Position numbers and translations under genes: made by a program. Source: Methanobacteriota archaeon (GTDB taxonomy: Archaea > Thermoplasmatota > Poseidoniia > Poseidoniales > Poseidoniaceae). Taken from it: a stretch of 32,297 nucleotides of DNA. Of the stretch, positions 2,559 through 30,037 are shown in pieces; position 1 is the first letter of the stretch; each line of letters opens with the position of its first letter. The DNA lies in contig NZRR01000053.1 in assembly GCA_002696315.1 (NCBI GenBank), positions 1,878-34,174 on the forward strand, given 5' to 3'. Below the pieces are notes generated by a model. It saw only the letters and a list, made by a program, of their open reading frames with translations, was not told the DNA's origin and did not search any database.

Positions 2559-5500
2559 ATTTTTAAGAATTCTTTCTTCTTCCTCATCAATTTTTCCATC
2601 ACTTACTGCTTCGAATATTTTCTCAACTTGCTCTGGAGATAAACCTGCTAATTCAGCTGCTTTCTTAATTAATTTGGCTTCCTCTTCATCGACATGACCG
2701 TCTGCAATTGCATGCTGAATAGCTACTCTAGTAGTATATTGACCAATTTCAGTAGATTCTAATCCTAATTTAATTGCAACTTTAATTAGTTCCTCGATAT
2801 CATTAGAAGTAAGTATATTTTCAGATCTTGCGTCCTCCCATTTACCTAAAACTAATGTTTTTGCTGCAGATAATGCACTTGGAATTCCATCTGAATTGGA
2901 ACCGCCTCCTTGTGCAAAAGTAGGTCTTCCACCTCCACCTCCTTCAATATATTTTGAAATTGCTTGTAAAATTATCGAAGCATTATATCTTTCAGAAGCA
3001 ATACTATTTTCTGTTATGGAAACCAATAATTTACCACCTTTATCCCTACTTCCAATAATTGCCAAGGTTGGTTTATTAGGGTCTAGAGTCAATTCTCCCA
3101 CCATTTTTGTCATTTGCTTAATATCACTTTCAACTTCCATAATAATTATTCTAACACCATCAACTTCGCTTGAGTCTTCTCCATCTACACCCGAAGTTCT
3201 AAGCCTAATTATTTCGGCTTCTAATTGTTCAATCTTTTTCCTTTGTAATTTCCATTCTTCAAAAAATCTACTCGAGGTTTTAGGTAAATCTTTTTCTGAA
3301 ACACCAAAAGTGGAAGAAGAATCACGAATTAATTGATCTTGTTTTCTTCCATAACTTAATGCTGCATTTCCAGCAACAATTTGTAACCTTTCTACTCCGT
3401 CTTGAACTAAAGTTGAACGAACAACCCGTATTTGTCCAATTTTACCTGGAACATCATGATGAGTACCTCCGCATGCTTGTGTGTCATGGGTGCCGATTTC
3501 TAGAATTCTAATTTTCTTTGTTTTTGGTGCACCACCTTGATATAAATCAAAACCATAGATTGAATCTGCATCCTTTCTATCCAATTCTGATTTCGTAGTA
3601 GAATCTACTTGTTGTAAAACTTCGTTTGCTATTGATTCTATTTCATCTAAATCTTCTCTAGTAAGCCGTTCATAATGAGTAATGTCTAGTCTACCGTATT
3701 CTTCAGACACATTAGAACCAGCTTGATATACATGTGGGCCTAATATTTTTCTAGCTGCACCTCCAACAATATGAACACTAGTATGATGATCCATAAGTTG
3801 TTTTCTACGATCATAATCTACTATTCCGTGAACTACCGTCCCTACTTGGATTACTGAATCACAGAAATGTATTACATAATTTCCTTGTTTTTGACAATCA
3901 AGAACTTTAGAGGTCCCATTAGGATGTATTATCTCTCCAAAATCAGGCTCTTGTCCTCCACCCTCTGGATAAAATGCAGTTTTATCCAGTAAAATTGCGT
4001 GAGTAATATTATCATTTTCATCTTTTATCTCTTCACAACAGATTACCCTAGCATTAAATTCAAACCAAAAAGAATTTTGATAATACAATAGTTCAGTTTC
4101 GACTAAACTAGGGTTTATCTCAAAATATTCTTTACTTTTAACTTTAGATGCAACTTTTACTGACTCTGCATGTCTCTCGGCCATCTCCGCATTAAATCCT
4201 AAACGTAATCTAATATTGCCTCCTGAAATATTATTTGCAATTTGAACTGCCATTCCAGGAGGAATTCCATGACTATCATTTAATTGAAAATAAAACTCAT
4301 CAGGTAGTTCAGTAACGTCTTTAGAATGCTTTTTTAACTCATTTGAAACAATATTTTTTCCTCTCCTCAAGGTTTCTGCATATCGCTCTTCTTCGACTGA
4401 TAAAATTTCTAAGACGCCACTTTTTGTCTGTTTTAATGAGTCTAATTCGAAATTAACATCTAAATGAAATTCGGCCAATTCAGGGAGTGTTTTATTAATT
4501 CCTAATTCATCCCTCATTCTCATTACTCTTCGTGACATCATTCTTGCAAGATAACCTTCCTTAGCATTAGATGGAACTAATCCATCACCCAACATATTAC
4601 ATAATGCATGTAAATGATCAGGTATAGCATAAATTTTTGATAAAGTATTCATTAATTCTTTTACTTGTTCGCTTTCAACATTAATTTTTCTTTCGGATAA
4701 CCTTTCAATTAGTTTTGAAAATATTTCATTTTCATCTGAGCCTACTTCAATGTTCATAATCCCTGAAATTTTAGATAATTCACCCAATAAGTTATCTAAA
4801 TCTTGAATATTAATATGTTTAATTTTATTATCAAATTCACATAAACTTTTCAGCCAATCGATTGATTTTGGATATATTGCTTCATAAATAGTTGGTGTTC
4901 CAGCTGCAGCCCAACAAAAACGCTCTAAACCATATCCTGTGTCAACAATTTGTAAATCCATTTCTGAGTATTTTATACCTTTAATTTCATATTGACCATC
5001 TTCATCCTCTTCTAAATTCATGAAAACTAAAGTTGCTAATTCTAAACCACCAACAATTACCTCAACAGCAGGACCTGCGTTCCCGCCTCCTGACCAAGGA
5101 TTTTCAACATACGTAATTTCAAAAGCATCTATTCCTAATTCTTCAGTAAATAATTCATGACATAATTCAACACATCTATTCATCCAATAATATTCAATTC
5201 CCTCTTTTGGCTTATTAAACACGTGATGAGCCATCATCTCAAAGGTAGTTAGATGTCTTCCAGAATGTCCGACTGCATCAACATCCGTTAATCTAATACA
5301 AGGTTGGGAGATTGTCAAAGGATTTGCAGGAGGATCAACTAAACCACTTGTAACATGTGGTTGAAAATCAGCAATTGACGCTATTGTTAAATGGATATCA
5401 TCACGCCATCTTGCTAGAATCGGATAAGGTGAAATTTTAGCATGATCTCTTAATTGAAAAAATCTTAAAAATCTCTCCCTCATATTATTTTTTAACTCTA

Positions 5501-5684
5501 ATCCTCGTTCTTTAAATCCTGAAATTAAAGGTTCTCCAATGAAGGTATATTCATCCAAGTGAGTATCTCCACAAGTTACTCTATCTGGGTCGCTTGACCA
5601 ATACCAAAGAGAGGTTTCAATACATTTCCTTCTTTCATACCCCTTTTCTACCAAATAAGGTATATCAATTGGGGGTAATGGCAT
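2547..5684 (-). CDS. alaS: Alanyl-tRNA synthetase, archaeal type, with C-terminal extension
   Basis: Charges tRNA-Ala with alanine and hydrolyses mischarged Ser/Gly-tRNA-Ala. 1045 residues, longer than the roughly 900 typical of archaeal AlaRS. Order: catalytic domain (1 to about 440; RWRDDIHLTIASIADFQPHVTSG replaced here in short form as WRDDIHLTIASI, and CIRLTDVDAVGHSGRHLT read as CIRLTDVD); editing domain with zinc ligands HTSVH (about 630) and CGGTH (about 735); DHHA1/C-Ala domain with GGGGGRPTFAQGGG (about 915); then about 65 extra residues with two ADGHVDEEE/SDGKIDEEE units resembling a TerB-like helical domain. The N-terminal cysteine cluster of archaeal AlaRS is degraded (see findings). 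Start ATG has GGTGA at 5689-5693 with a 4-nt spacer, directly after the stop of the upstream gene, so the two are probably co-translated. Confidence 0.97.
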   Translation of the reverse strand: MPLPPIDIPYLVEKGYERRKCIETSLWYWSSDPDRVTCGDTHLDEYTFIGEPLISGFKERGLELKNNMRERFLRFFQLRDHAKISPYPILARWRDDIHLTIASIADFQPHVTSGLVDPPANPLTISQPCIRLTDVDAVGHSGRHLTTFEMMAHHVFNKPKEGIEYYWMNRCVELCHELFTEELGIDAFEITYVENPWSGGGNAGPAVEVIVGGLELATLVFMNLEEDEDGQYEIKGIKYSEMDLQIVDTGYGLERFCWAAAGTPTIYEAIYPKSIDWLKSLCEFDNKIKHINIQDLDNLLGELSKISGIMNIEVGSDENEIFSKLIERLSERKINVESEQVKELMNTLSKIYAIPDHLHALCNMLGDGLVPSNAKEGYLARMMSRRVMRMRDELGINKTLPELAEFHLDVNFELDSLKQTKSGVLEILSVEEERYAETLRRGKNIVSNELKKHSKDVTELPDEFYFQLNDSHGIPPGMAVQIANNISGGNIRLRLGFNAEMAERHAESVKVASKVKSKEYFEINPSLVETELLYYQNSFWFEFNARVICCEEIKDENDNITHAILLDKTAFYPEGGGQEPDFGEIIHPNGTSKVLDCQKQGNYVIHFCDSVIQVGTVVHGIVDYDRRKQLMDHHTSVHIVGGAARKILGPHVYQAGSNVSEEYGRLDITHYERLTREDLDEIESIANEVLQQVDSTTKSELDRKDADSIYGFDLYQGGAPKTKKIRILEIGTHDTQACGGTHHDVPGKIGQIRVVRSTLVQDGVERLQIVAGNAALSYGRKQDQLIRDSSSTFGVSEKDLPKTSSRFFEEWKLQRKKIEQLEAEIIRLRTSGVDGEDSSEVDGVRIIIMEVESDIKQMTKMVGELTLDPNKPTLAIIGSRDKGGKLLVSITENSIASERYNASIILQAISKYIEGGGGGRPTFAQGGGSNSDGIPSALSAAKTLVLGKWEDARSENILTSNDIEELIKVAIKLGLESTEIGQYTTRVAIQHAIADGHVDEEEAKLIKKAAELAGLSPEQVEKIFEAVSDGKIDEEEERILKNLLS

Positions 5685-8138: not shown

Positions 8139-11100
8139 TTATTCGTAGAATTCGTCCTTCATTTGTTGCACAGACCATCCGGCTTCTAAATATTGTAACA
8201 ATACATCTTCACCCCAAGAAGGGAAAGCATTCATTGCCTCTGCAAGAGCAGGGTGCGCAGACGTATCTACAGGTTCGTCTGATTCCTGCCTTCCATGACT
8301 TGTAGGAACTTCAGGTGCTTCTTTTTGTATCATTTCTTCAGCATCATCAAGATAATCATCTTCATCTCTGCTCCTTAAAATTAGGAAAGCAATGGATCCA
8401 ACGACTGCAAATAATATGAATCCACCTAGTCCAAACCAAATAATCATCGATCCACCCTCATCTCTTTCACCAGATTCAACATTAATTGCAGAACCACCGG
8501 CTCCAAGTACTGGGAATGCTTCACTTTCCATTCCATCAACAATTAGTCTTAATTCTAATGAGCCCGCACTACCAATTTCGTAACTGAAAGGATCTGGCTG
8601 GAATGATTGACCATCAGTTAATGAAACGGTATTTGATGAAATTGTTGTCCAATTTCCAAAGTCATTCTTGAACTGTAGAGATACATTTCCATCTCCTTCT
8701 TTATTACCTACGTTTTTAGCAAGATAACTGATTGTAATAGTTTCACCAACATAAGGATCTGATGGAAGAACATTAATTTCTGATATTTCAAGTCTAAATG
8801 ATTGAACATCAACCTCTACAAATCGAGGTTGAGATTCTGTTCCAGCACCAATAGGCATATTCCCTGCTAAATCTTGAACTTCTACCCAAACTTTAAGTCC
8901 ATCACCAATATTTAATCTAAAACAATCATTTGGAGTCATATCTATTGCTTCTTGATATGTCCAAGATGTTGAACCAGCAGACCCCCCAGAGGTTTGCTTA
9001 ACTTCTGCGCTGTCTCTACTACATACTATTTCAGGTCCGCCAAAACCATCTGTAAAAGCCCAGTAAATATTTAATGGACCATCTGCGATTCCTCCATCAT
9101 CATTTAGAATAATTGTAACTAAAACTGCAGAAAGCTCATCCGATTTCAAATCTTTAAATGTATTTGCACCAAATGAAACCGATGGTGCATCACTGTCTAC
9201 AATAATCATTGAATTAATCTCGCTAACATCTGTACCTAATTCTGGAATTCCAGTAATACTCATTTGAATTGGTAATCTTGGATCACTTAGAGCTCTAGTA
9301 GGTAGTGTGACAATTATCTCAAAAGTTCCTTCTTCATCCGTTACTATTGAATCTCCATGAACCTCTTCCGTACCATAATTAAAGTCTAAATTTACTAATA
9401 GATCTGGTGGGATTGTCTTAATTGGTTCTCGAGCATTTGCAAATTTAACCATACCAGTAACTGATACTTCATCACCTTCCGCCACATAAAGTAATTCAGG
9501 AGATCCTGCGGTCATTGGTGGTGTTAAATCACTCATATTCACAATTTCAATCATTAATTCATTATCTAAACTCCACCTATTAGTCCCAATATTTGTTAGG
9601 ACCAAATCATATGTACCAGGATTTGTAACTGGGTCTGTATCTTCCAGAACGATAGATGGTAAATTCCATCCACCTTTCGCAACTTCAGGGAAATCCCAGT
9701 CTAGTGAGAAGTAGAAATTTAGATTATACAATGAACCTTGGAAAGGAGTAACTTCCACATCATGAATTTTTAAGAAACTACCTTCGGGTGTTGAAAAATC
9801 ATCCGTAACAGGATTATATGTCATTACACCCAAAGTTTCCTCTGTTTCCCCTAATAGGTATACTGTGATGTAATCAACTGTTCCAATTCCATTTGGCTCA
9901 TCGATTCTCATTGATAATGTATGATTTTGTCCTACCATCAAATATTCACTCTCTGTATCTAGATAAATGAAATCTTGAAGAATTTGTGTGGGTTCGTTTA
10001 TTGCAGTATATATTGTAGCATAATCGGTATCGAAACCAGGACTACCACCATTGCTTAATTGATTTCCAGCGAAATCAATTGCAGTAAAGTATACACTAAC
10101 CCTATTATTTTCTTGATTTACTTCTAAATTAATTGGCAAGAAATTAACCGTTTCTTCTCCAGCAACACCAGAATTAAAAATCATCATAGTTGTTGATGCA
10201 TATTCTTGTGGATCAGGAACACCATTCTTTCCATTTATTGAAGGATCATATAAATCATGCATATCTTCAATCCAGTAATGCATTGTAACTTCTGAACCTA
10301 ATGACTGATTATCTGCTATCGTAAACAATAAAGAAATCTCTTTAGCGGGATCCCAAGTATATCCGTCAGCATCGATATATTGTCCTGATGTATAAATTTG
10401 TAAACGCTCACCTGTAGGTGCATCATCGTCAATTCTAAACTCAACAGTTGGTCGTTGTCTAGTTTCATCAAAACCTCCTTCAACTCCATCTCCAGGTCCA
10501 ACTCTATTTATTTCAGCAGATAAAGGATAACGAATTATTACTCCTGCACCTTCATCTCCTCTTACAGGAGTTACTACAGTTCCAGACCATGTCCCTGATT
10601 CTTGTGAAGTCATATTAACTAATACACCACTTAAATTAGCAACTACATTAAAAGCGTCTATTTCTGGGAATCTATCTGTGGAATCTTCGAATGAAACATT
10701 TCCATACACTGTCAATGTACTATTGGCTGCCACCCACGAATCTTCAGAGACTAGTCTTCCGAATTGATCAAAAACCTCGAAATTAGTGACCATTAAATCA
10801 TTTTCAACTGCATTATATCCAGCACCACCAGAATCCACAGAATATGGAGATATACCATATCCATCTGCATCCATAGCTAGTGAATTCCAAGTAATAATTG
10901 GCTCATCATCCCAATCCCATTGAACTTGGAAACCCCAATCAATAACCCACTGATCATCTACAAGGTTTACTGATGATTCTGCAGGTATTAATGAAAGGAA
11001 TTGTGAACCGAGTACTTGTGTAAAAGTAGGTGTTCCATCTAAATCTTGAACATCTACTTCTATAAATGCACCACTAGATGCTGTCGCCCTCAATCTTACT

Positions 11101-14100
11101 TTTTCAATTAGATTATTATCTTCCAAATGATAGTGTGAAGTTGTTACAGTTTGAATAGTGCCGTCTGGATAAAATGTAGCAGGAGGTTCAAATGGAACAT
11201 TTGTAATTAATAATTCGTGATAAATAGAACCATTCAGAGAAACTCCCCCCCTGTCTGCTAACAAAGATAAATTGTAACGTACATTATTTGCTGTACCGTT
11301 ATCATTATTCGCTTGATGATAAGGTTCAAAGGTCGGCTCTAATCCTGTAATATTCTCTAAAATATCATAGCCTATAGCCATAGAACCAACACTTACAGAA
11401 GCTGTTGAATCCTCTCCCGAGAAATCCATACTCAAATCTATTTCTACATTCCAATATGTTCTTCCATTTTCTACTACAGTTTGTGAACCTGTCAGAGCGC
11501 CACTAATTGGTAACTCAATTAATGCTTGAGCGCCTACAGAATCATTTACCAGCATTACGGTATTTGTCTGACCTAAATATGACGCTGAGATATTTGCATC
11601 GTATAAGTCAGATGTCACCATTACAGGTAATATTGCAGACTCCACACTTGCGTTTTCAGGAATTAATGTATTGATAGAAATGATTTCATTTTCTGAAAAT
11701 TCAAGTTCTAATCCTCTATCTTCTGAATTAGACATTGTAAAAGTACCATCTTCTGACACTCCATAAAATCTATTTTGCCATCCAAAATGGCCATAATAGG
11801 GATCCGCAGGGAACTCCCAATCTATATCTCCATCACGTAAAATATCAATTTGTGGATTAAATGCGGGATTTGTATAATATCCTACTAAATAAAACCAATT
11901 AAGATAACCTGAAGGGTCAAGTTGAATATCAACTTTAATACCTGGTTGAGGATTATCAAATACTATTAGTTGTCCGGGCATTAAACTACCAATTAGATTT
12001 CCAGAAATATCACTTAATAATAGCGTTACATCTGCAGAACCAGTCAATTCAAATGTTCTCATAGGTCTCGACGAATACATAAATTCACTCGAAATAATAT
12101 GAGTTTGTCCATCTGTCACAGTCATATTTCCCAAATCTGTAATTGCAACACCTGATTCTGGTAGATTCCATCCATTATTATCAGCATACAATGTTTCATA
12201 AGATCTAATACCGCCGAAAAATAGTTCTGTCAAGGTGGGAGTGAAATGAGGATCGTCAGTACCAAAATTTAGTTGAAGTCGAATGTTTGGATATAAATCT
12301 AAATCTAAACCCGCTAATGAAAACGGTATTGTCAAATTATCAAAACCTGGAACAACCTGTCCTCCTGCATTTAATATTGATCCTGTAATCCAAGTTCCAT
12401 TTGGAACTTCCATAATTGCATCAATAAACCCTGCACCTAATTCATCCATTGCAAGCAATTCACTTTGCCACTTTCCGTTTAATTGGAAATAATCTACCTC
12501 AATACCCAAATCATCTACATACCAACCGTCATAATTCCAATACCTATCTGCTGCAAATTCAAATCTAAATTGTACAGTTGAACCATTATAATCTTCTAAA
12601 GACCCTCGCATTTTTTCCCAGCCAGGATGGGTGGTACCAGTACCAGTACAAGTCCCACCACTTTGTGGTTGACCATACCCTTGACCAACAAAAGCATCAT
12701 AACCTGCTAGAGGATTATTTGAAGTAAGGCCTCCAATCATTCCATCGTACCAAGAATTGTTATACCCTCCAAGAACTGTAGGCTGGAAATGAGTGAAATT
12801 ACTACCATTTACAGATATAAATACAACACCACCATCATAATTTGGTTCAGCACAAATCCAATGGCTAAATGACAAATAACTGGTTGCATTATCTAAAAGT
12901 GTATATGTTGGAGTTGTCAAACGTGTGTGTAACTGCGGCGCTGCCCAATTATATTGTCCAGCAAAATCAACTCCAAACCCATGAGTACCCGTTGGAAACG
13001 CTAGAGGGCCAAAACCAGGATGTGGATTAGGGATTTCACCAAACTCCCATTCTGATGCTGCATAAAGGTTTTCAGCAATAAAACCATTAGCACCTATTGC
13101 AACAGGATTTTCAAAACTTTCAGAAAATGAATAGGCCCCTTGATTATTCACAACATATTTCCAATCATCAATTCCTGGATTACTCTGTGGATTAAATCCC
13201 CCATATGGAGCTGTTTCATGCCACCCATTAACATTTGTTTGGAAATCATCTGAAAAAAGAACAGATCCTGTGTTTGAATCTGTAATTTCTAAATTATCAA
13301 AGAACACACCACAATGCTGTGAATATTGTGGATATGCACATCCAAGTGAAGAATCTGTAGAAACTTTCACTCTGAACCAAGTAGTAGAATCACCTACATA
13401 ACCAGCAGGATAAGTATATTCTAGAGATTCAAAACCTTGTGTATCGCCTGTAACTCCACTGGAAGAGGAACCTGGTATTGGATTTGAGGGAGATGAACCC
13501 ACAGGGATTAGATCTTCCCAAGTTGTATTGTCTTTACTAACCTCAAAATACATATTATCGCCATAAGGTGCATTTCCTCCTTCTAAAGCCCAATGTGCAT
13601 CAAAATTAATTGTAGGATCGACAGTTGCAGAACTTAAATCAATAGGGAAAACAAGAGAACCTCCACCTTGATTAGCATAATTTCCATTTGCATTGGTACA
13701 ACCATCTGCTGGTGAGCATCCAAATAACCAAGCATCATATGCTAATTCTCCAGGGTTATCTAACTGAATATTGTCAATATACCATCCAGGTCTTTCTTCA
13801 GAATCTACTGATGAACGATAATTCCATCTGAATTGAATAGAATTAGAACCTGGAATATCAGGAACATTTGATAAATTAAAAACTGATGTTATCCAACCAG
13901 AGGCTTCTGTACTCGCCCATACAGGGAATCCATGTACACCTCCTGAAGGTGCACCTGCAGGAATAATACTTACTTTTATTCCAGAGTTATTTATGGCACT
14001 TGTATTGAATGGTGTTTCATTACCTTGATCTATATTGTTAAATTTAGACCCCACATAACCAGTGTAATTAGCCATTGAACCATCTTCTGTAATTATAGTA

Positions 14101-14972
14101 CCTGAATATGGAAGGTTTGTAGGCAGGCTTTCATAGACATTAAGCGTACTATTTTCACCATCATAATCTCCGTCCAAAGTGTAATTTAATGATGTTAAAT
14201 TTGTATCTATTGTATTTGGATATCCACCTTCAGGGGCTAGATGAGTCCAATCTCCTACATTAACTCTGTATTCTAACCAAACTCCGTCACCATCCCCTGT
14301 AGTATTTGATGATGTATCAATATGGTACCAATGATCAAAACTTAGAATCAAATCATTTGTAGGATTAGGAGTTAGAATAGTTGGTAATTCTAAAGATTGA
14401 AATATATCACCTGTTACAGAAGAAGTAGGATTGGTACCCAACAGATAATTTCCATTAGTAGGAGATGCGGGTATATCCCCATATGGCATATTGTAAACAC
14501 CAGCATTAGGAACTGCACCTAAGATTGCCATATCTGATATAGACCATAAATCGTATTGAGAACCATATTGTTGAATTGTATTTGGGAAATCATATTCTAA
14601 ACCTGATTCAAAATCAGTTTTTTGATTAACAAAAGGATCAGGAGCTAAAGAAAGTATATCTCCGTAGTGATCTAAAGTAGTTCCTTCAAGTGAACCGTTT
14701 GAAAAATCCGTTCCGAATGAGTTGTAATATAAACCGTAACCATCATCCACCATCCCATCAACACCCACGTTAACCCAACCATCAAGAATAGTAGCATTTC
14801 CAGGAACTACAAAACCATTAGTTGTAGTTTCACTCCCTGAAGAAGTTATATACGAAGGTCCAGACCATTCTGTAAATGCAGCATTCGCTGTTGGAAGACA
14901 CATAATTAATGCTAAAAATACACATAGAGTTTTCTTATTTGAAAGTTCATTTTTTCTAAAATCAGACGTCAT
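8139..14972 (-). CDS. Giant membrane-anchored surface protein (adhesin-like)
   Basis: 2277 residues from the ATG at 14972, chosen because GGTGA at 14977-14981 sits 4 nt upstream and a signal peptide follows (KKTLCVFLALIMCLPTANA, cleavage near AFTEW). The extracellular part is rich in Gly, Ser, Thr, Asn, Asp and aromatic residues with many N-x-S/T sites. At least three jelly-roll/lectin-like domains are suggested by repeated patterns such as LSFDHWYHIDT (about 210), CGVFFDNLEI (about 545) and LSFSHWICAEPNYDGG (about 697). Many immunoglobulin-like beta-sandwich segments follow. A CARDB-like domain lies near 2060-2150 (EINVLPSDPYVGETITISY). One membrane helix (about 2173-2199) is followed by an acidic cytoplasmic tail of about 75 residues ending GWSVQQMKDEFYE. 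Likely displayed on the cell surface for attachment or polymer binding; ligand unknown. Confidence 0.9.
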   Translation of the reverse strand: MTSDFRKNELSNKKTLCVFLALIMCLPTANAAFTEWSGPSYITSSGSETTTNGFVVPGNATILDGWVNVGVDGMVDDGYGLYYNSFGTDFSNGSLEGTTLDHYGDILSLAPDPFVNQKTDFESGLEYDFPNTIQQYGSQYDLWSISDMAILGAVPNAGVYNMPYGDIPASPTNGNYLLGTNPTSSVTGDIFQSLELPTILTPNPTNDLILSFDHWYHIDTSSNTTGDGDGVWLEYRVNVGDWTHLAPEGGYPNTIDTNLTSLNYTLDGDYDGENSTLNVYESLPTNLPYSGTIITEDGSMANYTGYVGSKFNNIDQGNETPFNTSAINNSGIKVSIIPAGAPSGGVHGFPVWASTEASGWITSVFNLSNVPDIPGSNSIQFRWNYRSSVDSEERPGWYIDNIQLDNPGELAYDAWLFGCSPADGCTNANGNYANQGGGSLVFPIDLSSATVDPTINFDAHWALEGGNAPYGDNMYFEVSKDNTTWEDLIPVGSSPSNPIPGSSSSGVTGDTQGFESLEYTYPAGYVGDSTTWFRVKVSTDSSLGCAYPQYSQHCGVFFDNLEITDSNTGSVLFSDDFQTNVNGWHETAPYGGFNPQSNPGIDDWKYVVNNQGAYSFSESFENPVAIGANGFIAENLYAASEWEFGEIPNPHPGFGPLAFPTGTHGFGVDFAGQYNWAAPQLHTRLTTPTYTLLDNATSYLSFSHWICAEPNYDGGVVFISVNGSNFTHFQPTVLGGYNNSWYDGMIGGLTSNNPLAGYDAFVGQGYGQPQSGGTCTGTGTTHPGWEKMRGSLEDYNGSTVQFRFEFAADRYWNYDGWYVDDLGIEVDYFQLNGKWQSELLAMDELGAGFIDAIMEVPNGTWITGSILNAGGQVVPGFDNLTIPFSLAGLDLDLYPNIRLQLNFGTDDPHFTPTLTELFFGGIRSYETLYADNNGWNLPESGVAITDLGNMTVTDGQTHIISSEFMYSSRPMRTFELTGSADVTLLLSDISGNLIGSLMPGQLIVFDNPQPGIKVDIQLDPSGYLNWFYLVGYYTNPAFNPQIDILRDGDIDWEFPADPYYGHFGWQNRFYGVSEDGTFTMSNSEDRGLELEFSENEIISINTLIPENASVESAILPVMVTSDLYDANISASYLGQTNTVMLVNDSVGAQALIELPISGALTGSQTVVENGRTYWNVEIDLSMDFSGEDSTASVSVGSMAIGYDILENITGLEPTFEPYHQANNDNGTANNVRYNLSLLADRGGVSLNGSIYHELLITNVPFEPPATFYPDGTIQTVTTSHYHLEDNNLIEKVRLRATASSGAFIEVDVQDLDGTPTFTQVLGSQFLSLIPAESSVNLVDDQWVIDWGFQVQWDWDDEPIITWNSLAMDADGYGISPYSVDSGGAGYNAVENDLMVTNFEVFDQFGRLVSEDSWVAANSTLTVYGNVSFEDSTDRFPEIDAFNVVANLSGVLVNMTSQESGTWSGTVVTPVRGDEGAGVIIRYPLSAEINRVGPGDGVEGGFDETRQRPTVEFRIDDDAPTGERLQIYTSGQYIDADGYTWDPAKEISLLFTIADNQSLGSEVTMHYWIEDMHDLYDPSINGKNGVPDPQEYASTTMMIFNSGVAGEETVNFLPINLEVNQENNRVSVYFTAIDFAGNQLSNGGSPGFDTDYATIYTAINEPTQILQDFIYLDTESEYLMVGQNHTLSMRIDEPNGIGTVDYITVYLLGETEETLGVMTYNPVTDDFSTPEGSFLKIHDVEVTPFQGSLYNLNFYFSLDWDFPEVAKGGWNLPSIVLEDTDPVTNPGTYDLVLTNIGTNRWSLDNELMIEIVNMSDLTPPMTAGSPELLYVAEGDEVSVTGMVKFANAREPIKTIPPDLLVNLDFNYGTEEVHGDSIVTDEEGTFEIIVTLPTRALSDPRLPIQMSITGIPELGTDVSEINSMIIVDSDAPSVSFGANTFKDLKSDELSAVLVTIILNDDGGIADGPLNIYWAFTDGFGGPEIVCSRDSAEVKQTSGGSAGSTSWTYQEAIDMTPNDCFRLNIGDGLKVWVEVQDLAGNMPIGAGTESQPRFVEVDVQSFRLEISEINVLPSDPYVGETITISYLAKNVGNKEGDGNVSLQFKNDFGNWTTISSNTVSLTDGQSFQPDPFSYEIGSAGSLELRLIVDGMESEAFPVLGAGGSAINVESGERDEGGSMIIWFGLGGFILFAVVGSIAFLILRSRDEDDYLDDAEEMIQKEAPEVPTSHGRQESDEPVDTSAHPALAEAMNAFPSWGEDVLLQYLEAGWSVQQMKDEFYE

Positions 14973-14983
14973 TGGTTCACCCT

Positions 14984-15000
14984 GCACCCCGTAGGGGTGC
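14984..15000 (-). promoter_or_regulatory. Hairpin in leader of the giant surface-protein gene
   Basis: A perfect 7-bp inverted repeat (GCACCCC/GGGGTGC) with a 3-nt loop. On the mRNA strand it ends 2 nt before the GGTGA ribosome site (14977-14981) and 11 nt before the start codon. It is notably GC-rich against the surrounding AT-rich DNA, so it would form a stable stem beside the ribosome site and could modulate translation. Confidence 0.5.
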
Positions 15001-15034
15001 GTACTAGGCATTTGAAACACACGCTCAAGAGTTT

Positions 15035-15433: not shown

Positions 15434-16606
15434 ATGGCGGCTACCCTTGGAGCGGAAAAATCGACTCCGGGAGACGCCATTACTAATGCTGATGATGCTA
15501 GTGAATTTGAAGACTTAATTAATATAAAATTAAATAAAAATTTAAGTGAATTACACCCGATTTTTAATACAATTGATGAATTAAGAAAACAGATATTATT
15601 TATGAGTTTAAAGTTACGAAAATCGTGGTCACAAGCCGAATTTTTAACTGTGGGCATAGGTACTTTAGCCATCATCATTGGCGCAATTACTTTTGATGGA
15701 GAATTGCAAAATGGTGGAGATTTCCTCAAAGTAGGTATTGGGCCTCTTGGGAATGGAGGCTTGAGTGCTGTTTCTGCAGCTAGTTTTTTCCAATTAATTC
15801 TTAGTATTGGGTGTTGGATATTCTTCCTATATCGTATTTGGAACCATTATCCACTCATGAGAGGTCAATCCGTCAGCCTGATAATTATGTGGTTTAGTAT
15901 CACAATAATGGCTATAGCGGCTCATAACGGCGCTCCAAAATTTCCATTCGAATTTAGTTCTGATAGTTTTACGACGCTATTGGGGGCTTTTGTTGTTACA
16001 ATATTTTTAGGCATTGTTTTTTCTAGGGCAGTACTAGAAACTAGAGATCTGCATGTTGAAGAAAAATTTCAAAATAAAGACCCACGAATTATGGCAGAGT
16101 CTCTGTATAACCATAGTTTATTTGGATGGGTTGCTACTCTTATAATTTGGTCGTTCATTGCATTCATTAGTTCTTGGGCTGGTGCTCATTACGTGGCTGT
16201 TAGACCCCACGGTAGTTGGATTTGGCAACTAACTTATGTAATATTTGGAAGTTTTTCGACATTTGGAATTTGCATACTATTATGGTATCCACAACTAATG
16301 CTTGGTGCTGGTGAAAGAGTAATTATGTCAAAAAGAGCCAGAGAAGTAGACGATATGCTATTGGGTGAGGAGATTTGGAAAGAGGAAGTTGGCAAATGTC
16401 CCGATTGCGATGCTCCATCACCCGTAACTAGAGGCCGAGATGGTTTGCCAAATCTTAACTGTTCAGTAGAAAATTGTGAGGGAAGAGGGCCGATAAATTC
16501 TAAATGTACTCTTTGTGATGAAAATATACCATCTAGAATTAAATGTGAAAAATGTGGAATTAGTGCGCCAGCAGTAAAACATCTTAGTGACCAAGAAGCA
16601 TGGTGA
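15434..16606 (+). CDS. Six-helix membrane protein with two C-terminal zinc ribbons
   Basis: 390 residues, family not recognised. After a polar N-terminus of about 65 residues there are about six hydrophobic segments (near 69-87, 112-135, 145-163, 180-200, 228-256, 264-290). A cytoplasmic-looking C-terminus follows with two four-cysteine clusters: Cys322, Cys325, Cys343 and Cys348, then Cys358, Cys361, Cys371 and Cys374, each spaced like a zinc ribbon. A membrane protein with tandem zinc ribbons suggests a sensor, a scaffold or a nucleic-acid/protein-binding tether; this is inference. AGGA lies close upstream of the start. Its stop codon TGA is part of the GGTGA ribosome site of the next gene, a membrane-anchored subtilase, so the two are translationally coupled. 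Confidence 0.8.
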   Translation: MAATLGAEKSTPGDAITNADDASEFEDLINIKLNKNLSELHPIFNTIDELRKQILFMSLKLRKSWSQAEFLTVGIGTLAIIIGAITFDGELQNGGDFLKVGIGPLGNGGLSAVSAASFFQLILSIGCWIFFLYRIWNHYPLMRGQSVSLIIMWFSITIMAIAAHNGAPKFPFEFSSDSFTTLLGAFVVTIFLGIVFSRAVLETRDLHVEEKFQNKDPRIMAESLYNHSLFGWVATLIIWSFIAFISSWAGAHYVAVRPHGSWIWQLTYVIFGSFSTFGICILLWYPQLMLGAGERVIMSKRAREVDDMLLGEEIWKEEVGKCPDCDAPSPVTRGRDGLPNLNCSVENCEGRGPINSKCTLCDENIPSRIKCEKCGISAPAVKHLSDQEAW

Positions 16607-16610
16607 TTCG

Positions 16611-17807
16611 TTGATTGAAGAAAAATCAAATAAACAGGAAGATAAAGAAAAAATTCTTCAAGAAGATAAAACAATTCTTGACGTTGAACATGATAAATGG
16701 GACGAATTTGATGATTTATCCATTAGATCGGTAATTGCAATTTGTACAGTCATTTTATTGATTTTAGGCTCAGGAATAGTATATGTTGCATGGAATAATT
16801 GGTGGAATGATGATTTGATTGGGCCAGGTACATTTCTTACAAGCAGACAGCAGAGTTATGAAAATTTAGTTGGTTTCTCTAATTTGGAAATTAATGGACA
16901 AGGCATCATGGTGTGTATTGTAGATTCTGGTATTGACTTAACGCATCCTGACTTGAGGCATTTAGAATTAAATGGATGGAAAGATTTTGTAAATTCAAAA
17001 GAAACGGTTTATGATGACCACGGACATGGCACCATGATGGCTGGAATCATGTCTGCAAAAGGTGGTTTAACCGGAGTAGCCAATGGTGTAAGTCTTCTAG
17101 TCGCCAAAGCCCTTTCTGAAGAAGGCACTGGTTCTGACGAAATTGTGTCTGAAGCAATTAATTGGTGTCGAAATAATCAAGCAGACATAATTTCTTTATC
17201 ATTAGGAGGCGCTCCAGGAATAATTCCATCTCTCATCAGTGGTGATTTAGTCGAAGAATCAGTTAATGACGCTTTAGATGAAGGAATTTACGTCATTGCA
17301 GCCGCAGGAAATGATGGTGAAGAAGAAACAGATGAAGATGTAGATAGTCCTTGTAATGTTGAAAATGTAATCTGTGTTGGAGGTGTTGGCATCGAGGGCA
17401 CTATTTGGAGCGGTAGTAGCAAAGGCTCGAACGATTTCCAAATATTCCCTCCAAAATTAGCAAGACAAGATCCTGATAAAAAACCCGAATTAGTAGCCCC
17501 TGCAGAAAGTATTCCTGTTCTGGTTTCAACAAATAAGGGTGAAAATGAACCTACAGAATCAACTTATGGAACTGCTAGTGGAACATCTGCTGCAACTGTA
17601 TATGTTTCCTCAGCCATAGCATTGTTACTCCAATCTAATCCAAGCTTATCTCGAAATGGTTCAAATGGTGGAGATATTGAAGTAATTGAACAAGTAAAGC
17701 AATGGATTAAAGAAACCTGTTTACAAAGAACAAATTCAAATGAACATGATGATTACTATGGATATGGATTATTACAAGTTGATATTCTAATCGAGAGGGC
17801 TACTTAG
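16611..17807 (+). CDS. Membrane-anchored subtilisin-like serine protease (S8)
   Basis: 398 residues from a TTG start at 16611. GGTGA at 16602-16606 lies 4 nt upstream, the same spacing as for alaS and the giant gene; an in-frame GTG at 16587 gives 8 more residues but has no ribosome site. A charged cytoplasmic N-terminus (Lys/Glu-rich) precedes one membrane helix (about residues 38-61). The catalytic triad is visible: Asp105 in IVDSGIDLTHPDL, His139 in GHGTMMAGI, Ser326 in GTSAA, with oxyanion Asn234 in AAAGND. Only about 40 residues separate the helix from the Asp motif, too few for a standard inhibitor propeptide. The protease would sit outside the membrane, N-terminus in. Likely partner of the zinc-ribbon membrane protein upstream. 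Confidence 0.9.
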   Translation: MIEEKSNKQEDKEKILQEDKTILDVEHDKWDEFDDLSIRSVIAICTVILLILGSGIVYVAWNNWWNDDLIGPGTFLTSRQQSYENLVGFSNLEINGQGIMVCIVDSGIDLTHPDLRHLELNGWKDFVNSKETVYDDHGHGTMMAGIMSAKGGLTGVANGVSLLVAKALSEEGTGSDEIVSEAINWCRNNQADIISLSLGGAPGIIPSLISGDLVEESVNDALDEGIYVIAAAGNDGEEETDEDVDSPCNVENVICVGGVGIEGTIWSGSSKGSNDFQIFPPKLARQDPDKKPELVAPAESIPVLVSTNKGENEPTESTYGTASGTSAATVYVSSAIALLLQSNPSLSRNGSNGGDIEVIEQVKQWIKETCLQRTNSNEHDDYYGYGLLQVDILIERAT

Positions 17808-23650: not shown

Positions 23651-23750
23651 AAACCATTCGGACACCCAATCAATACCTCTATTCCTATAGATTAATGAAA
23701 TTAAAACCTTAATGTTTTAGTAATTCAACAATGGCTCCATAGTGAGGGTA

Positions 23751-26700
23751 ATGAAAAGAGGCCGCGTAAATTTCGTGTTTGTCGTAAGCACGATAGTTTT
23801 TATTTTGCTGCAATCGTGGATTCCTTTCGTTATAGAACTAGATTCAAAAATAGATAGTTCGAATAGTAATATGAATTCAGAAGTTTGGACTGGAGATGAT
23901 CAGCCTTGGTCACAATTCGGGCATAACCCAACTAGAAATTCTACATCTCCACCACATTCAATTAATGGTGGTTTTGGATTGAATAGTCTTGGAATTATTA
24001 CTGAACCTTCTATTAATTGGAAATCTTCGGCTGATGATGAATATGGAGTACAAAGTTATGGGAGCGCCATTGCCAATTTTTCTGGACAAATATCCTCTAC
24101 AGAATTCACTAATGAAAGATGTGGAGAGGGGAATTTATTTGCCGTCTTTACAATTGAGAGGAATTCTGGTTCTGAAAATGATTGGTTAGTAATTGTTGAA
24201 GGTGGATTAAATAGAGAAGCCTGGAGAGTTGATTTAGGAGAGACTTCAAATGTGAAATCAACACCTGGAATAGTAGATATTAATGGTGACGGAATTTTTG
24301 AAATTATTATTGCATATGATACGCCCTCTGGCCTTAAAGTTGATGCTTGGTCACCTCAACTATCATGTTCGGAAGCAGGAAATTGGAATGCTGACCAGCA
24401 TTCAAGTGATCTATTATGGACATACAGCGAACCTGATTTAAAGCTTGGAATTTCTGCAGATTCATTTAACGCTGGTCATCTTGCTTCAACACAAGCACTA
24501 ATTGCAGATTTACAACTAGATGGTGATCCAGAACTTGTTTTATCCACAGTAGATGATACCACGGACAGACCCACGATTATTTCAATTCCATTAACTAATT
24601 CTGCCCCAAATAACCCACTTTGGGAAATTCAATTAGACTATGGAACTCATCCATCTGACCCTACATGGGCTCAAATTGACGAAGAGAATGCGGCAATATT
24701 AGTTACCACAATAGATAGTGATGATGGAAATATGTGGGCTTGGAGAATAAATTCAGAAACGGGTTCTTTAGATTGGAATGCCAGATCTTTAATTTCAGAA
24801 GGAGATAGTGGAGTTCCACACATTAGATTACCAGGTCCCGTAATTGCACAATTGGATGATGATGATATCCCTGAAGTGATATTTACTGCACCCGGAGATT
24901 GGGACGAAAATTCACCAGTTGATGCCGCAAGTTATCATGCATGGGAATTAACTGATGGAAGTGAAATATTATCATTTACAGCTTCAAATGGATATGCTGA
25001 AACTCCACCCCTTCCTGTAGACATAGACAACGATGGGATTCATGAACATATTTGTTGGGTCACTTGGTTTGAAGACGGTGTTTTAAACTCAGATAGACAT
25101 GGGAGGGTTGGTTGTGAAGATATTACTGGAGACACATCTGGGTGGTGGGAAGACATGGAGCCATTTGATGGAAATTCAAATGATGGGATTGCCATGAGTC
25201 AACCGATATCATTAGACTTAAACGGAATTGGTGCACCCGAGATTATCGTTGCTTACGGACAATCCTTAAGGGCGTATGATGGAGATGATGGAAATTCAGA
25301 CGTGTGGGATGAAAATATTGATCTAGGGAAAAGAAGTTGGGCATCCCCTTCAATAGCAGACTTGGATGGAGATGGTTTACTTGACATCCTAGTTGGTGAT
25401 GTACTAGTTTCTCAAGCCAATATTGATATTGCACCAATATTAGATGGCAGAGGTATTTCGTTTTCCCCTTCTGCTGCGGATCCAGGAGATATTGTAGAAA
25501 TAACCGCCCAATATGCGAATCATGGCACAATAGCTAGTGATGAACCTGTAGATGCGAGAATTTATGTAAATAATAACTTAATTTCAACAAATAGAATTTT
25601 TGATATGGAACCAAGCTCACCTAGTGGAAATGCCATAGATTCATCATTTACTGTAGAATGGACTGCAGAATTAGGAACTCATGAAATCAGATTAGAATTA
25701 GATCCATACAACAATCTAACTCAATCCAGAACAGATAACGATAACTATTCCATTCAATTTACAGTATTAGAACCCTATGATTTAGCAATTTCTCTACCAT
25801 CCGAACCTACAAGAATAAATCCTGGTGAATCTGAAATATTAGATCTAAGTATCTCAGCTGTTGGAAGGCGCGCTGCAGAATGGAGTATGACAATAAATAA
25901 TTCGAATATGCCAGATAATTGGACTGTAGTTGATCAAAATCCTGAACTAAGCCAATCAGTCAATATAGACCCTGAAGGAAATGAATGGATTCCGAATCTC
26001 TTAGTTACCATCCCATCCGATGCTGAAGGCTCTGAAACAGGATCATTTCTAGTTACAATGACTTTAGATTCAAACCCATCAATCAGTAAAAGCTTTCTTA
26101 TTCCAATTGAAGTGAACTTGACAAGAGGATTATCCATCACAGGCCCTGATGGTAATTCTATTTCTACTGGTCACGGATTAAGGGGAGAAAATGCATCTGC
26201 ATGGTTTCAAATAGAGAATCTAGGTAATGCTGAAGAAAGACTAACTAGTCAAACATGGAGTTCAAATAATTGGCAAACAACACCCTCTATTTTCGATCAA
26301 AATGGTGGCCCATATTATTCCATAACATTATCTCCTGGCGAAGTAAGAGAATTTACTGCAGTGGTATCCGTTCCTAAATCTGTAGAATTAGGTTCAATCG
26401 TAAAAAATATATTTACTGGATGTATTGGAACAGAAGATGATAGTTTATGTAAATCAATAGAATTTACATTCATAGCAAATTCAATTGCCATGGAGCCACC
26501 TCATGTAAAAAGTATACCTGGTGTGGAATTATCTTGGCAATTAAATTCGAATTCAAGTGAAGGAGATCTGGTAATCGATCTTGCCACCTCGGGAATGACA
26601 TTACCAGGATGGATTTGGTCAGTTGAAGGTCATGGAACTTTAAACGGAAATATACTAAATATCACTCAATCTGAAGAAATTAAACTTACTTGGATTAATG

Positions 26701-29375
26701 CATCAATACCGAGTCAATCACCACCATTACTCCATACAATTAATTCGGAAATTGAATCTGGAATTAGTTTGAATTTCAGCATCAATATTTTACAAGTTAA
26801 TCGTGCAGAAGTAGAAATTGTAGAACCATTTAATGAGCCTATAATTGTGGATGTAGATGTACCAAATACATTAATTGTCAAATTAAAAAATAAAGGGAAT
26901 GGAGAAGACTCATTCAAACTAAATGCAGAATTCATTAATTCAGGCGATATTAAAGAAGACCCGGGGATAGAATTTTTCATCCCAGTTTCCACATTCACTC
27001 TCGATGTTGACACTAGTGTATTCCCTACAATTGATTATACAATCCCCAATAATTCTCCCGCAGGTGAAATAATAATTGTAAGGATCTCAATCACATCACT
27101 CGTAGACTCAAGTCTTTATGAATTTGAAGACATTGCAATAAGCGCTAAACAACACCACAATTGGTCCGTATCGAATATTAGTGGATTTGAATTTAATGCC
27201 AATCAAAATGAAAATGTATTTATTTCCTTTAATGTAACAAATACTGGCAATCTATTAGACATTATGGAATGGAGTTCAACTATAGAAACAATTCAAAATA
27301 TTAATGATTCATCTGTCTGGGAAGTTAATGTTGATCAAGAAAGGAATATTGAAGTAAATCAAACAAGCATGTTTGGAATTAATCTAACAATCCCTAGTAC
27401 TGCCTGGAAAGATAGTGTGCTTTTTTATAATTTAAGTTTAATATCAGATTCAAAGAGTTTTGCTGATTTAAATTTTAAGATAACTGTTCTAAGAAATAGT
27501 GGGTGGTCATTGAAATTAATTAATTCAAACCTCGATGTTGAAAATTCAGGTTCAAATATCACTTTTGAAATTGAAAATAAAGGAAATTCAATAGTTGAAC
27601 CCATACTAATTCCTGTGTTACCAACGGGTTGGAATATCACAAATATATCTGAAACCATACAAGTAGAACCTGGAAAATCAATTTCTGTGGAATTATACAT
27701 AATACCACCATCTAATTCCATGGCAGGAGAAATTGGCATCATGACATTAATCGTCAAAGATGGTGATTCATTAGATGGAAGAAGTGAAATCTCAGTACCA
27801 CTAAGAGTAGCAAATAAATATTCAATAGAAGTAGGATTTGAAGAAAATTGGTTTGTTAATGAAAATGGAGGATATCCGCTTTTTTGGATAAAAAACACAG
27901 GTAATGGATTAAGTAAAATAACAATTGATTTGGATATTCCAGAAGGTTGGCAAATTTCATCACCAGGCGAATTTTATATTGCCTCTGGCGCAACTAAGGG
28001 AGTTCCGATTTCATTAATTCCTCCAGAAAACTGGGATAAAAATAATCACTCTCAAACAATTAAAATTTCAGATCCGTCTGGTTTCGAACAAAATATTACT
28101 TTGAACGTTAAAGCACATTGTTGTGATTTAGAAATTTCTTGGGGATCTAGCCCTGTTTTTGTGGGCTATGCTAATGATGCTATTGAAATCGATATAAATG
28201 GAGACATGAATGAAGGCCAATCACTTATTGAGATAAATAGTCCAGGCATATTTGAATATGATATTTGCGAGATTCTAAATTTAAACGATTGTACAAATGA
28301 ATTACAATATAAAGTCATTGTACTTGAAAAACCAGATTTAAATGCTAACTGTGAATTAAAAAATTCTATGATTTCTGATTTAGAAACGGGAACTAGCATT
28401 AACTCTAATATAATTGCAAATTGTCAATTTTACGAAACTATTAGCGAGGTTCGTTGGAACATAATCCTCAGGATTAATGGGGAATTAATCGAAAGTATTT
28501 CGGGTGTACAAATTGGAAATTCAACAACCCAAAACCTCACACTAGAAAGCTGGACAATTGTTGGAGGAACACACTTAATTAACATTGAAATTTATGATGG
28601 TTTTGGGAATTTATTAGATAGTGAAACAAAAATAGTAACTATTCCCCATTCTAATTGGAATATTGGAATTTCATCAGTAGATATTTCTTCAGATAATGAA
28701 GACCTAACAATTAACATGCGAAGAGAAAATTATGAACAACTAGTAGATGTACATTGTACATTAACAGGATCAAGTACATCTGAATGGTATTCTGAATGGA
28801 AAATAGACATGACAAAAGGTCAAGTTGCACCAACAATTAAAATTTCTAGGCCAAACATCACCTCTAATGAAATTTTATTCACTTTAAACTGTGAAAAACC
28901 ATGGCATTTGGATGATAATCAAGAAGATAATACTTTCACATATTTGGTCCCAAGTATTACTACACCAATTATTGAAAGTAATGATTGGGCTTGGACAGTT
29001 ATTTCCGCAATAGTATTGTTGGCTTTTGCTAAAATATTTGGTTTTCTTGAAATTAAAACTAAAAAACAAGAACAAAACAATACAAGAAGAGTTGAGAGAA
29101 CTGAAAAGATACCAGAAGTAAAATTCATTCAAAATGATAAAAATGAAGAAGCAAGTATGCATCTTGAAGATGAAAAAGACAACATGTTAGAAGAAGTAGT
29201 TACTGAAGAATTAATTAGCGAGGAAGTAGCTAGCGAGGAAGTAGTTACCGAAGAAGCAGTTAGAGAAGAAGAAATTATTGAAATAACTGAGATTGATGAA
29301 ACTGATTCTGGAGTTGAAGATGACATTGATGCAAAGATAAATAAAATGATGTCTAGGAAACGCTACTACGACTAG
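23751..29375 (+). CDS. Giant membrane-anchored surface protein with FG-GAP propeller
   Basis: 1874 residues from the ATG at 23751; an in-frame GTG at 23742 is the alternative. Signal sequence at residues about 6-28 (VNFVFVVSTIVFILLQSWIPFV). Residues about 170-540 hold calcium-loop/FG-GAP repeats (DINGDGIFEI, DLQLDGDPELV, QLDDDDIPEV, DIDNDGIHEH, DLNGIGAPEI, DLDGDGLLDI) expected to form an integrin-alpha-like propeller. A CARDB-like domain follows at about 560-670, then about ten beta-sandwich repeats of the NEW3/CARDB type with GNSxxE and PxGW/NW motifs. One membrane helix lies near 1746-1768, then a Lys-rich stop-transfer and an acidic cytoplasmic tail with pentapeptide repeats. Probably a surface adhesin or envelope component; ligand unknown. 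An unknown 217-residue gene follows after 8 nt. Confidence 0.88.
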   Translation: MKRGRVNFVFVVSTIVFILLQSWIPFVIELDSKIDSSNSNMNSEVWTGDDQPWSQFGHNPTRNSTSPPHSINGGFGLNSLGIITEPSINWKSSADDEYGVQSYGSAIANFSGQISSTEFTNERCGEGNLFAVFTIERNSGSENDWLVIVEGGLNREAWRVDLGETSNVKSTPGIVDINGDGIFEIIIAYDTPSGLKVDAWSPQLSCSEAGNWNADQHSSDLLWTYSEPDLKLGISADSFNAGHLASTQALIADLQLDGDPELVLSTVDDTTDRPTIISIPLTNSAPNNPLWEIQLDYGTHPSDPTWAQIDEENAAILVTTIDSDDGNMWAWRINSETGSLDWNARSLISEGDSGVPHIRLPGPVIAQLDDDDIPEVIFTAPGDWDENSPVDAASYHAWELTDGSEILSFTASNGYAETPPLPVDIDNDGIHEHICWVTWFEDGVLNSDRHGRVGCEDITGDTSGWWEDMEPFDGNSNDGIAMSQPISLDLNGIGAPEIIVAYGQSLRAYDGDDGNSDVWDENIDLGKRSWASPSIADLDGDGLLDILVGDVLVSQANIDIAPILDGRGISFSPSAADPGDIVEITAQYANHGTIASDEPVDARIYVNNNLISTNRIFDMEPSSPSGNAIDSSFTVEWTAELGTHEIRLELDPYNNLTQSRTDNDNYSIQFTVLEPYDLAISLPSEPTRINPGESEILDLSISAVGRRAAEWSMTINNSNMPDNWTVVDQNPELSQSVNIDPEGNEWIPNLLVTIPSDAEGSETGSFLVTMTLDSNPSISKSFLIPIEVNLTRGLSITGPDGNSISTGHGLRGENASAWFQIENLGNAEERLTSQTWSSNNWQTTPSIFDQNGGPYYSITLSPGEVREFTAVVSVPKSVELGSIVKNIFTGCIGTEDDSLCKSIEFTFIANSIAMEPPHVKSIPGVELSWQLNSNSSEGDLVIDLATSGMTLPGWIWSVEGHGTLNGNILNITQSEEIKLTWINASIPSQSPPLLHTINSEIESGISLNFSINILQVNRAEVEIVEPFNEPIIVDVDVPNTLIVKLKNKGNGEDSFKLNAEFINSGDIKEDPGIEFFIPVSTFTLDVDTSVFPTIDYTIPNNSPAGEIIIVRISITSLVDSSLYEFEDIAISAKQHHNWSVSNISGFEFNANQNENVFISFNVTNTGNLLDIMEWSSTIETIQNINDSSVWEVNVDQERNIEVNQTSMFGINLTIPSTAWKDSVLFYNLSLISDSKSFADLNFKITVLRNSGWSLKLINSNLDVENSGSNITFEIENKGNSIVEPILIPVLPTGWNITNISETIQVEPGKSISVELYIIPPSNSMAGEIGIMTLIVKDGDSLDGRSEISVPLRVANKYSIEVGFEENWFVNENGGYPLFWIKNTGNGLSKITIDLDIPEGWQISSPGEFYIASGATKGVPISLIPPENWDKNNHSQTIKISDPSGFEQNITLNVKAHCCDLEISWGSSPVFVGYANDAIEIDINGDMNEGQSLIEINSPGIFEYDICEILNLNDCTNELQYKVIVLEKPDLNANCELKNSMISDLETGTSINSNIIANCQFYETISEVRWNIILRINGELIESISGVQIGNSTTQNLTLESWTIVGGTHLINIEIYDGFGNLLDSETKIVTIPHSNWNIGISSVDISSDNEDLTINMRRENYEQLVDVHCTLTGSSTSEWYSEWKIDMTKGQVAPTIKISRPNITSNEILFTLNCEKPWHLDDNQEDNTFTYLVPSITTPIIESNDWAWTVISAIVLLAFAKIFGFLEIKTKKQEQNNTRRVERTEKIPEVKFIQNDKNEEASMHLEDEKDNMLEEVVTEELISEEVASEEVVTEEAVREEEIIEITEIDETDSGVEDDIDAKINKMMSRKRYYD
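29190..29279 (+). repeat. Six tandem 15-bp units coding an acidic pentapeptide
   Basis: Inside the cytoplasmic tail of the giant protein the codons give EEVVT, EELIS, EEVAS, EEVVT, EEAVR, EEEII in register. Unit DNA is similar but not identical (for example GAAGAAGTAGTTACT and GAGGAAGTAGCTAGC), indicating old duplication rather than recent slippage. Confidence 0.75.
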
Positions 29376-29383
29376 GCGATAAT

Positions 29384-30037
29384 ATGTCAGAATTCAACGA
29401 TATTTCAGGAATTAATCCATTTTATACATTTGATCCATTTGATTGTGAGGGGATTATTGAATTATTAACAGTTTTAGACTCGACTGATGAAGATTTTCTA
29501 CAATTTTTAAAAGATAACCCCGTGATACTAGAAAGAATACAAAACCAAGGTATAGAAAATCCACAATCTAGAGAAGATATTCCATGGGATGATGCTAATT
29601 TGATTTTCATTGCATCAAAATCAGATGAAAGTAAAAGACATCCGCCTTTAGGAAAAGGAAAGGCAAAAGAGCGTTTAGGTAGGATTCCACTAGGTGAGGG
29701 AAACCCACTAAGTTATTTGTTAATGTATCTTAAACCACCAAATTCTGAAGAGGGTAAAAATATGTTTGATTTACTTTCAAAATTACATTCAGGTTTTTCA
29801 AAATCAGTACATAATCATGAGAGATTTTCAATTGGTAAATGGGGCATGAATCTTCAAGGATACCTTACTTATGATGAAATTGTCATACTAGATAAATTTC
29901 TTAAAACACTAAAATGGAGTGTTGCTGCTGATGAACCACTTGATGGAGGAGTTCGAACATTTGCAAGAGACTTAAGTATGATTTTGAGAGATGCTGAAAA
30001 ACAAAAAACAGGTGTGTTAATGCGCTCGCACCAATAA
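29384..30037 (+). CDS. Hypothetical cytosolic protein co-transcribed with the giant surface protein
   Basis: 217 residues, not recognised. No signal peptide, membrane helix, cysteine cluster or known catalytic motif. Mostly helical with a central basic, glycine-containing segment (HPPLGKGKAKERLGRIPLG) near residues 87-105 and a conserved-looking KWGMNLQGYLTYDE near 150. The start follows the giant gene by 8 nt with GGCGA four nt upstream, a one-base variant of the GGTGA-N4-ATG pattern used by other genes here. Its stop abuts that of purC. Because the giant protein has an acidic cytoplasmic tail, a soluble partner for that tail is conceivable but unproven. Confidence 0.7.
   Translation: MSEFNDISGINPFYTFDPFDCEGIIELLTVLDSTDEDFLQFLKDNPVILERIQNQGIENPQSREDIPWDDANLIFIASKSDESKRHPPLGKGKAKERLGRIPLGEGNPLSYLLMYLKPPNSEEGKNMFDLLSKLHSGFSKSVHNHERFSIGKWGMNLQGYLTYDEIVILDKFLKTLKWSVAADEPLDGGVRTFARDLSMILRDAEKQKTGVLMRSHQ

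Follow-up and report, generated by a model that had tools for sequence, protein, structure and literature searches.

A giant single-copy surface protein with a predicted cytoplasmic docking peptide and a co-located orphan protein in an archaeal order, probably Ca. Poseidoniales

In this study, we describe two adjacent archaeal genes encoding a giant type I surface protein and a small soluble protein. In our preferred reading, to which we assign a probability of about 0.45 on the basis of sequence comparison, the giant is a surface adhesion or envelope protein found once per genome throughout its order, equipped with a predicted cytoplasmic docking peptide and a putative accessory protein that is probably co-transcribed with it. 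The window, that is, the whole stretch of 32,297 nucleotides that was analysed, comes from a contig of 34 kb in a draft archaeal genome of 1.7 Mb. The order bearing the gene pair is probably Ca. Poseidoniales, since its 22 genera and two families (f1 and f2) in our genome sample fit the 21 genera in two families described for this group, Marine Group II (PMC6461757). The features of the locus are as follows:

23751..29375, + strand: gene of the giant type I surface protein, 1874 aa from its ATG (open reading frame, Pfam, single-copy orthologue)
23751..23868, + strand: N-terminal signal sequence region (hydrophobic N-terminus in orthologues)
23871..25509, + strand: FG-GAP/VCBS-type beta-propeller, residues about 44-590 (Pfam, loops, conservation)
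25512..28971, + strand: stalk of CARDB and then NEW3-type beta-sandwich repeats, residues about 591-1744, with conserved Cys
28980..29054, + strand: single membrane helix, NDWAWTVISAIVLLAFAKIFGFLEI (hydropathy, positive-inside charge step)
29055..29309, + strand: cytoplasmic linker, a basic juxtamembrane stretch followed by an acidic region of low complexity that carries six EE-x-x-[TSRI] units
29310..29372, + strand: conserved C-terminal peptide, DDIDAKINKMMSRKRYYD; in relatives EDRMxRFFGDR or DDFExRLxRL
29384..30037, + strand: gene of the soluble orphan protein, 217 aa (order-restricted family)

An ORF check showed that the coordinates given for both genes in the initial annotation are correct, as is the gap of 8 nt between the stop of the giant and the start of the small gene. 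Both genes lie on the + strand and are probably read on one transcript. The ORF list also offers an alternative GTG start for the giant at 23742, which would extend it to 1877 aa. Altogether, what had been observed at this locus is confirmed, and its interpretation, an outside-in adhesion or envelope-cytoplasm linkage system, is partly supported.

The hydrophobic N-terminus, the single membrane helix and the tail ending in MMSRKRYYD that had been described are all present in the window protein, where the one strong helix lies around residue 1750, with a mean hydropathy of 2.26, and the tail comprises 106 aa. Among the giant orthologues of 61 loci, the N-terminus is hydrophobic in 59, a positive-inside charge step marks the helix in 55, and the charge after the helix is net positive in 51. 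Because of this positive-inside charge and of the extracellular Cys, the propeller and the stalk are predicted to lie outside. In agreement with the beta-sandwich stalk proposed before, NEW3/NPCBM_assoc matches the window giant at 36.9 bits against a Pfam cut-off of 24.4, and CARDB exceeds its own cut-off at the same place in orthologues only. The propeller likely binds calcium, as five Dx[DN]xDG-like loops (residues 179, 256, 427, 492 and 540) are accompanied by QLDDDDIPE at residue 370. The calcium-binding propeller of the initial annotation is thus backed by these loops and by an FG-GAP_3 match of 30.9 bits against a cut-off of 26.9, although only one FG-GAP repeat passes the Pfam cut-off. 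An AlphaFold model of the propeller built from two sequences was of low confidence (pLDDT 30). The giant occurs once per genome in both families of the order, with no close paralogue, a near-constant length of about 1850-1960 aa and a constant domain order. In an alignment of the 61 orthologues, conservation is highest in the propeller and lowest in the region of the membrane helix and the tail.

Six EE-x-x-[TSRI] repeats had been claimed for the cytoplasmic tail. These repeats are real, as the window tail holds six units, spaced exactly 5 residues apart, where composition predicts 1.4 (P about 0.001). In relatives, those of the same genus included, we found 0-3 matches, and the six-unit array occurs in the window species only; for this reason we rejected the pentapeptide repeats as a functional unit. 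What relatives do keep is the anatomy of the tail, namely the basic juxtamembrane stretch, the mostly acidic linker and the C-terminal peptide, so that conservation of the tail holds for its layout and fails for its repeats. The linker is net negative in nearly all tails and about neutral in L068, L069, L118 and L119. The C-terminal peptide reads SGRLASLRxE...EDRMxRFFGDR in most f1 genera, DIDxRIDxMLxRR in genera g1, g2 and g5, DLEQRIEDMFSRR, a form related to the latter, in g6, and DDFExRLxRL in f2. The motif [FILM][DE]x[RK][LIM]xx[LMF] occurs in 50 of 63 tails, where shuffling predicts 0.09, a count that describes conservation and is no test of a prior hypothesis, since this strict motif was composed after inspecting the tails. 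Within the genus, nonsynonymous differences per site (pN), a measure that does not depend on the motif, were 0.30-0.46 in the linker; the last 21 codons had 0.08-0.15, the propeller 0.06-0.13 and the small gene 0.09-0.18. Hence, the C-terminal motif evolves about as slowly as the propeller, whereas the linker evolves fast. For the f1 form of the peptide, seven genomes yielded no convincing second match, the next best covering 15 residues at E 0.002.

A second giant surface protein is encoded in the window at 8139-15020 (-). It comprises 2293 aa and has a MAM-like domain (PF20773) and a membrane helix, followed by 78 cytoplasmic residues whose terminal peptide, SWGEDVLLQYLEAGWSVQQMKDEFYE, is unlike that of the first giant. 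Cytoplasmic tails may therefore be general to large surface proteins in these archaea. Two further genes of the window were noticeable. At 2547-5684 (-), an alanyl-tRNA synthetase (PF01411, DHHA1) carries a TerB-like/EF-hand-like C-terminal extension, DGHVDEEEAKLIKKA...DGKIDEEEERILKNLL, in which PF05099 scores above its cut-off, an unusual addition to this enzyme. At 16587-17807 (+) lies a Subtilase-family protease (PF00082, E 1e-48), directly preceded by a 390-aa protein without a Pfam match.

The small protein had been described as an unknown cytosolic protein, and we found no match to it in Pfam, NCBIfam, PHROGs or PDB, nor any relative in a scan of a viral sequence collection. On the evidence of these searches, we regard it as a new, previously unrecognised family. 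Its members are soluble, about 200-250 residues long and, with one exception, acidic (pI about 4.5-6.7), and share the invariant or near-invariant motifs R-x-x-G-R-x-P, E-x-x-D-G-G and, at the C-terminus, G-x-x-x-R-x-H. The basic segment noted earlier does exist in the window member (KGKAKERLGR), within a protein that is acidic overall, with a pI of 5.2. The acidity of the family lends no support to a pairing by charge between an acidic tail and a basic partner. An AlphaFold model from three sequences suggests a mostly helical protein, at low confidence (pLDDT 55), and a Foldseek search with this model found nothing (best E 1.3).

The small gene was detected in 268 of 319 genomes and in 20 of the 22 genera of the order, and in 86 of 97 genomes of the window's family. 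In the sample of the phylum, 132 of 392 genomes were positive, all inside the order and none outside it. We read 61 loci, comprising the window, 40 loci of f1 and 20 of f2, and the giant lies directly upstream of the small gene on the same strand in every one, in L057, L109, L066, L053 and L105 as broken or truncated remains. In L109 (G400:C5, about 110829-116376), several stop codons break the giant and the small gene is intact; these stops are either assembly errors or the mark of a recent pseudogene. Measured on the longest ORF, the small gene starts between -62 and +47 nt from the giant; taking the conserved start, the distance is 2-65 nt. A small gene without the giant, the case that would have spoken against the pairing, was thus not encountered; as the loci were picked for having the small gene, they show only that it never occurs alone.

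The neighbourhood qualifies this association. The block S24e-RpoE'-giant-small-purC is syntenic across the order, and in f1 and f2 alike the spacing of S24e and RpoE' upstream and of purC downstream is nearly constant in almost every locus. None of these three genes can plausibly be tied in function to a surface protein. Because such unrelated flanking genes are equally syntenic, adjacency by itself says little about a functional link between the giant and the small protein, and we do not take it as proof of function. On the other hand, the small-purC junction is inverted in L107, L113 and L115 and interrupted in L116, and the giant-small junction remains tight there, which lends mild support to a functional link. 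Just past aIF6 lie the 23S and 5S rRNA genes (L056 14420-17506, in the one-contig genome G011), which probably explains why so many draft contigs end about 2 kb downstream. In view of these rRNA-linked breaks, calls of absence near the locus need care. Accordingly, we discarded G092, G328 and G090 as cases of a missing small gene, their contigs ending in or just after the giant. The absence of both genes from the single genome of genus g7 is probably no loss either, since purC is missing there too and the locus likely lies outside the assembly.

Genus g16 is a clear natural loss. The small gene is absent from all six of its genomes in searches with a near profile at E up to 10, and all six keep a full-length giant whose C-terminal peptide is retained as DDFExRLKRLMRE. 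A convergent gene directly follows the giant in the five g16 loci that were read (L133-L137), in which a gene with a sulfotransferase-like start (MWSGPRNISTAMMYSFDNR) and an aminotransferase-like gene lie between the giant and purC, at the place that the small gene would take. An insertion of similar size is found in L116, from another genus, with the small gene retained. The small protein can therefore be rejected as the only receptor of the tail peptide. Because of g16, the peptide must have at least one function independent of the small protein, unless an unrelated protein has replaced the latter.

Several other explanations of the locus have to be weighed against our reading. The small gene may be functionally unrelated to the giant and be kept beside it by conservation of gene order around RpoE', S24e, purC, aIF6 and the 23S-5S rRNA genes. 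The nearly constant spacing of the flanking genes, the rRNA genes adjoining aIF6 and the loss in g16, which left the tail motif of the giant without visible change, all suit this explanation. Nonetheless, the shared strand and tight spacing in all loci, the invariable company of the giant and a giant-small junction that outlasts the small-purC rearrangements speak against it, and we hold it to be possible, if somewhat unlikely. Another proposal gives the small protein a dedicated role in the biogenesis of the giant, as a chaperone or an export helper, and none in signalling or linkage. The small protein is soluble, its position close downstream would allow it to act co-translationally, and the genomic association is obligate in one direction. 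However, g16 encodes a full-length giant without it, which makes this role quite doubtful.

The giant could also be mainly structural, an S-layer-like protein or a scaffold anchoring an S-layer, with a tail that anchors or positions it at the membrane. Its order-wide, single-copy occurrence, its near-constant length and domain order and its Ig-like stalk are in line with this, and two genome surveys of the group name no S-layer gene in their main texts. However, conservation peaks in the propeller with its calcium loops, which suggests binding over lattice packing. Moreover, cytoplasmic tails of 70-140 residues are unusual for archaeal S-layer proteins, and the codon usage of the giant is not distinctive, with no sign of unusually high expression. 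We consider a mainly structural role unlikely, albeit with some weight. Lastly, a large surface protein followed by a smaller gene recalls polymorphic toxins with their immunity genes, or the VARTIG modules of Thermococcales, in which smaller genes follow a large Ig-like surface protein (PMC8416519). The resemblance is one of layout alone. VARTIG modules are hypervariable (PMC8416519), whereas this locus is conserved and vertical in gene order, with one universal orthologue per genome and neither a variable C-terminal domain nor cassettes. Given a constant architecture and a single downstream gene in 61 loci, we rejected such a module as extremely improbable.

Among known proteins, the integrin alpha subunit had been proposed as a model for the giant. 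The likeness holds at the level of layout, with a propeller, a beta-sandwich stalk, a helix and a cytoplasmic tail in the same general order. The propeller of integrin alpha subunits is built of seven FG-GAP/Cage repeats and carries its calcium sites in blades 4/5-7 (PMC3192720), against the one FG-GAP_3 match above cut-off and the loops described here. The tail is different: KxGFFxR is absent after the helix, where the window has KTKKQEQNNTRR and relatives are not GFFKR-like; some integrin alpha subunits themselves lack this motif (PMC3192720). The integrin beta domain PF00362 had no match in four genomes, a result to be read with the fact that control genomes gave no match either. Judged by its sequence features, we do not class the giant as an integrin alpha subunit. 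LINKIN/ITFG1 is the closer architectural analogue, with an external N-terminal FG-GAP-type propeller, one membrane helix and a short cytoplasmic region (PMC4275582). Like this single-pass FG-GAP protein, the giant has a conserved extreme C-terminus whose sequence was not found in other proteins (in our case, the f1 form in seven genomes). LINKIN differs in its size of about 600 aa, in an intracellular domain of 22-24 aa and in having neither a long Ig-like stalk nor an acidic linker, and the likeness is proposed at the level of architecture and of propeller type. The partners of LINKIN are RUVBL1/2 and tubulin (PMC4275582). The giant also shares its domain families (PF13517, PF07705, PF10633) with prokaryotic VCBS/FG-GAP propeller proteins carrying CARDB and NEW3, from which it is set apart as one orthologue, present once per genome throughout the order, whose cytoplasmic peptide and downstream gene are both conserved.

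Returning to the reading that we prefer, a surface adhesion or envelope protein with a docking peptide, the giant would be exported by its signal sequence and would span the membrane once, holding the propeller and the stalk outside and about 70-140 residues inside. The propeller, to judge from its domain type, would most likely recognise an external particle, a neighbour or an envelope glycan. In the cytoplasm, a flexible and mostly acidic linker would present the short, amphipathic C-terminal peptide, which may serve as a docking site for a protein of the cytosol. For the small protein, an accessory role beside the giant is most likely, for instance as an adaptor or a stabiliser of the tail. 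A single linkage system made up of both proteins is a candidate reading, weakened by the synteny control and by g16. A fuller version, an order-specific system in which the state of the propeller is relayed through a disordered acidic tether to a peptide read by the 217-aa adaptor and by one or more further cytosolic partners still present in g16, strikes us as an unlikely, if conceivable, elaboration.

Ca. Poseidoniales are among the commonest archaea of the surface ocean and have lacked cultured representatives (PMC6461757). What is new here is a family of surface proteins found across the order with a conserved cytoplasmic peptide, together with an unrecognised, co-located protein family that has been lost naturally once. 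Genus g16, naturally devoid of the small protein, offers a direct way to test the partnership. A universal single-copy giant with a cytoplasmic peptide is a good candidate for the contact of the envelope with both outside particles and the cell interior.
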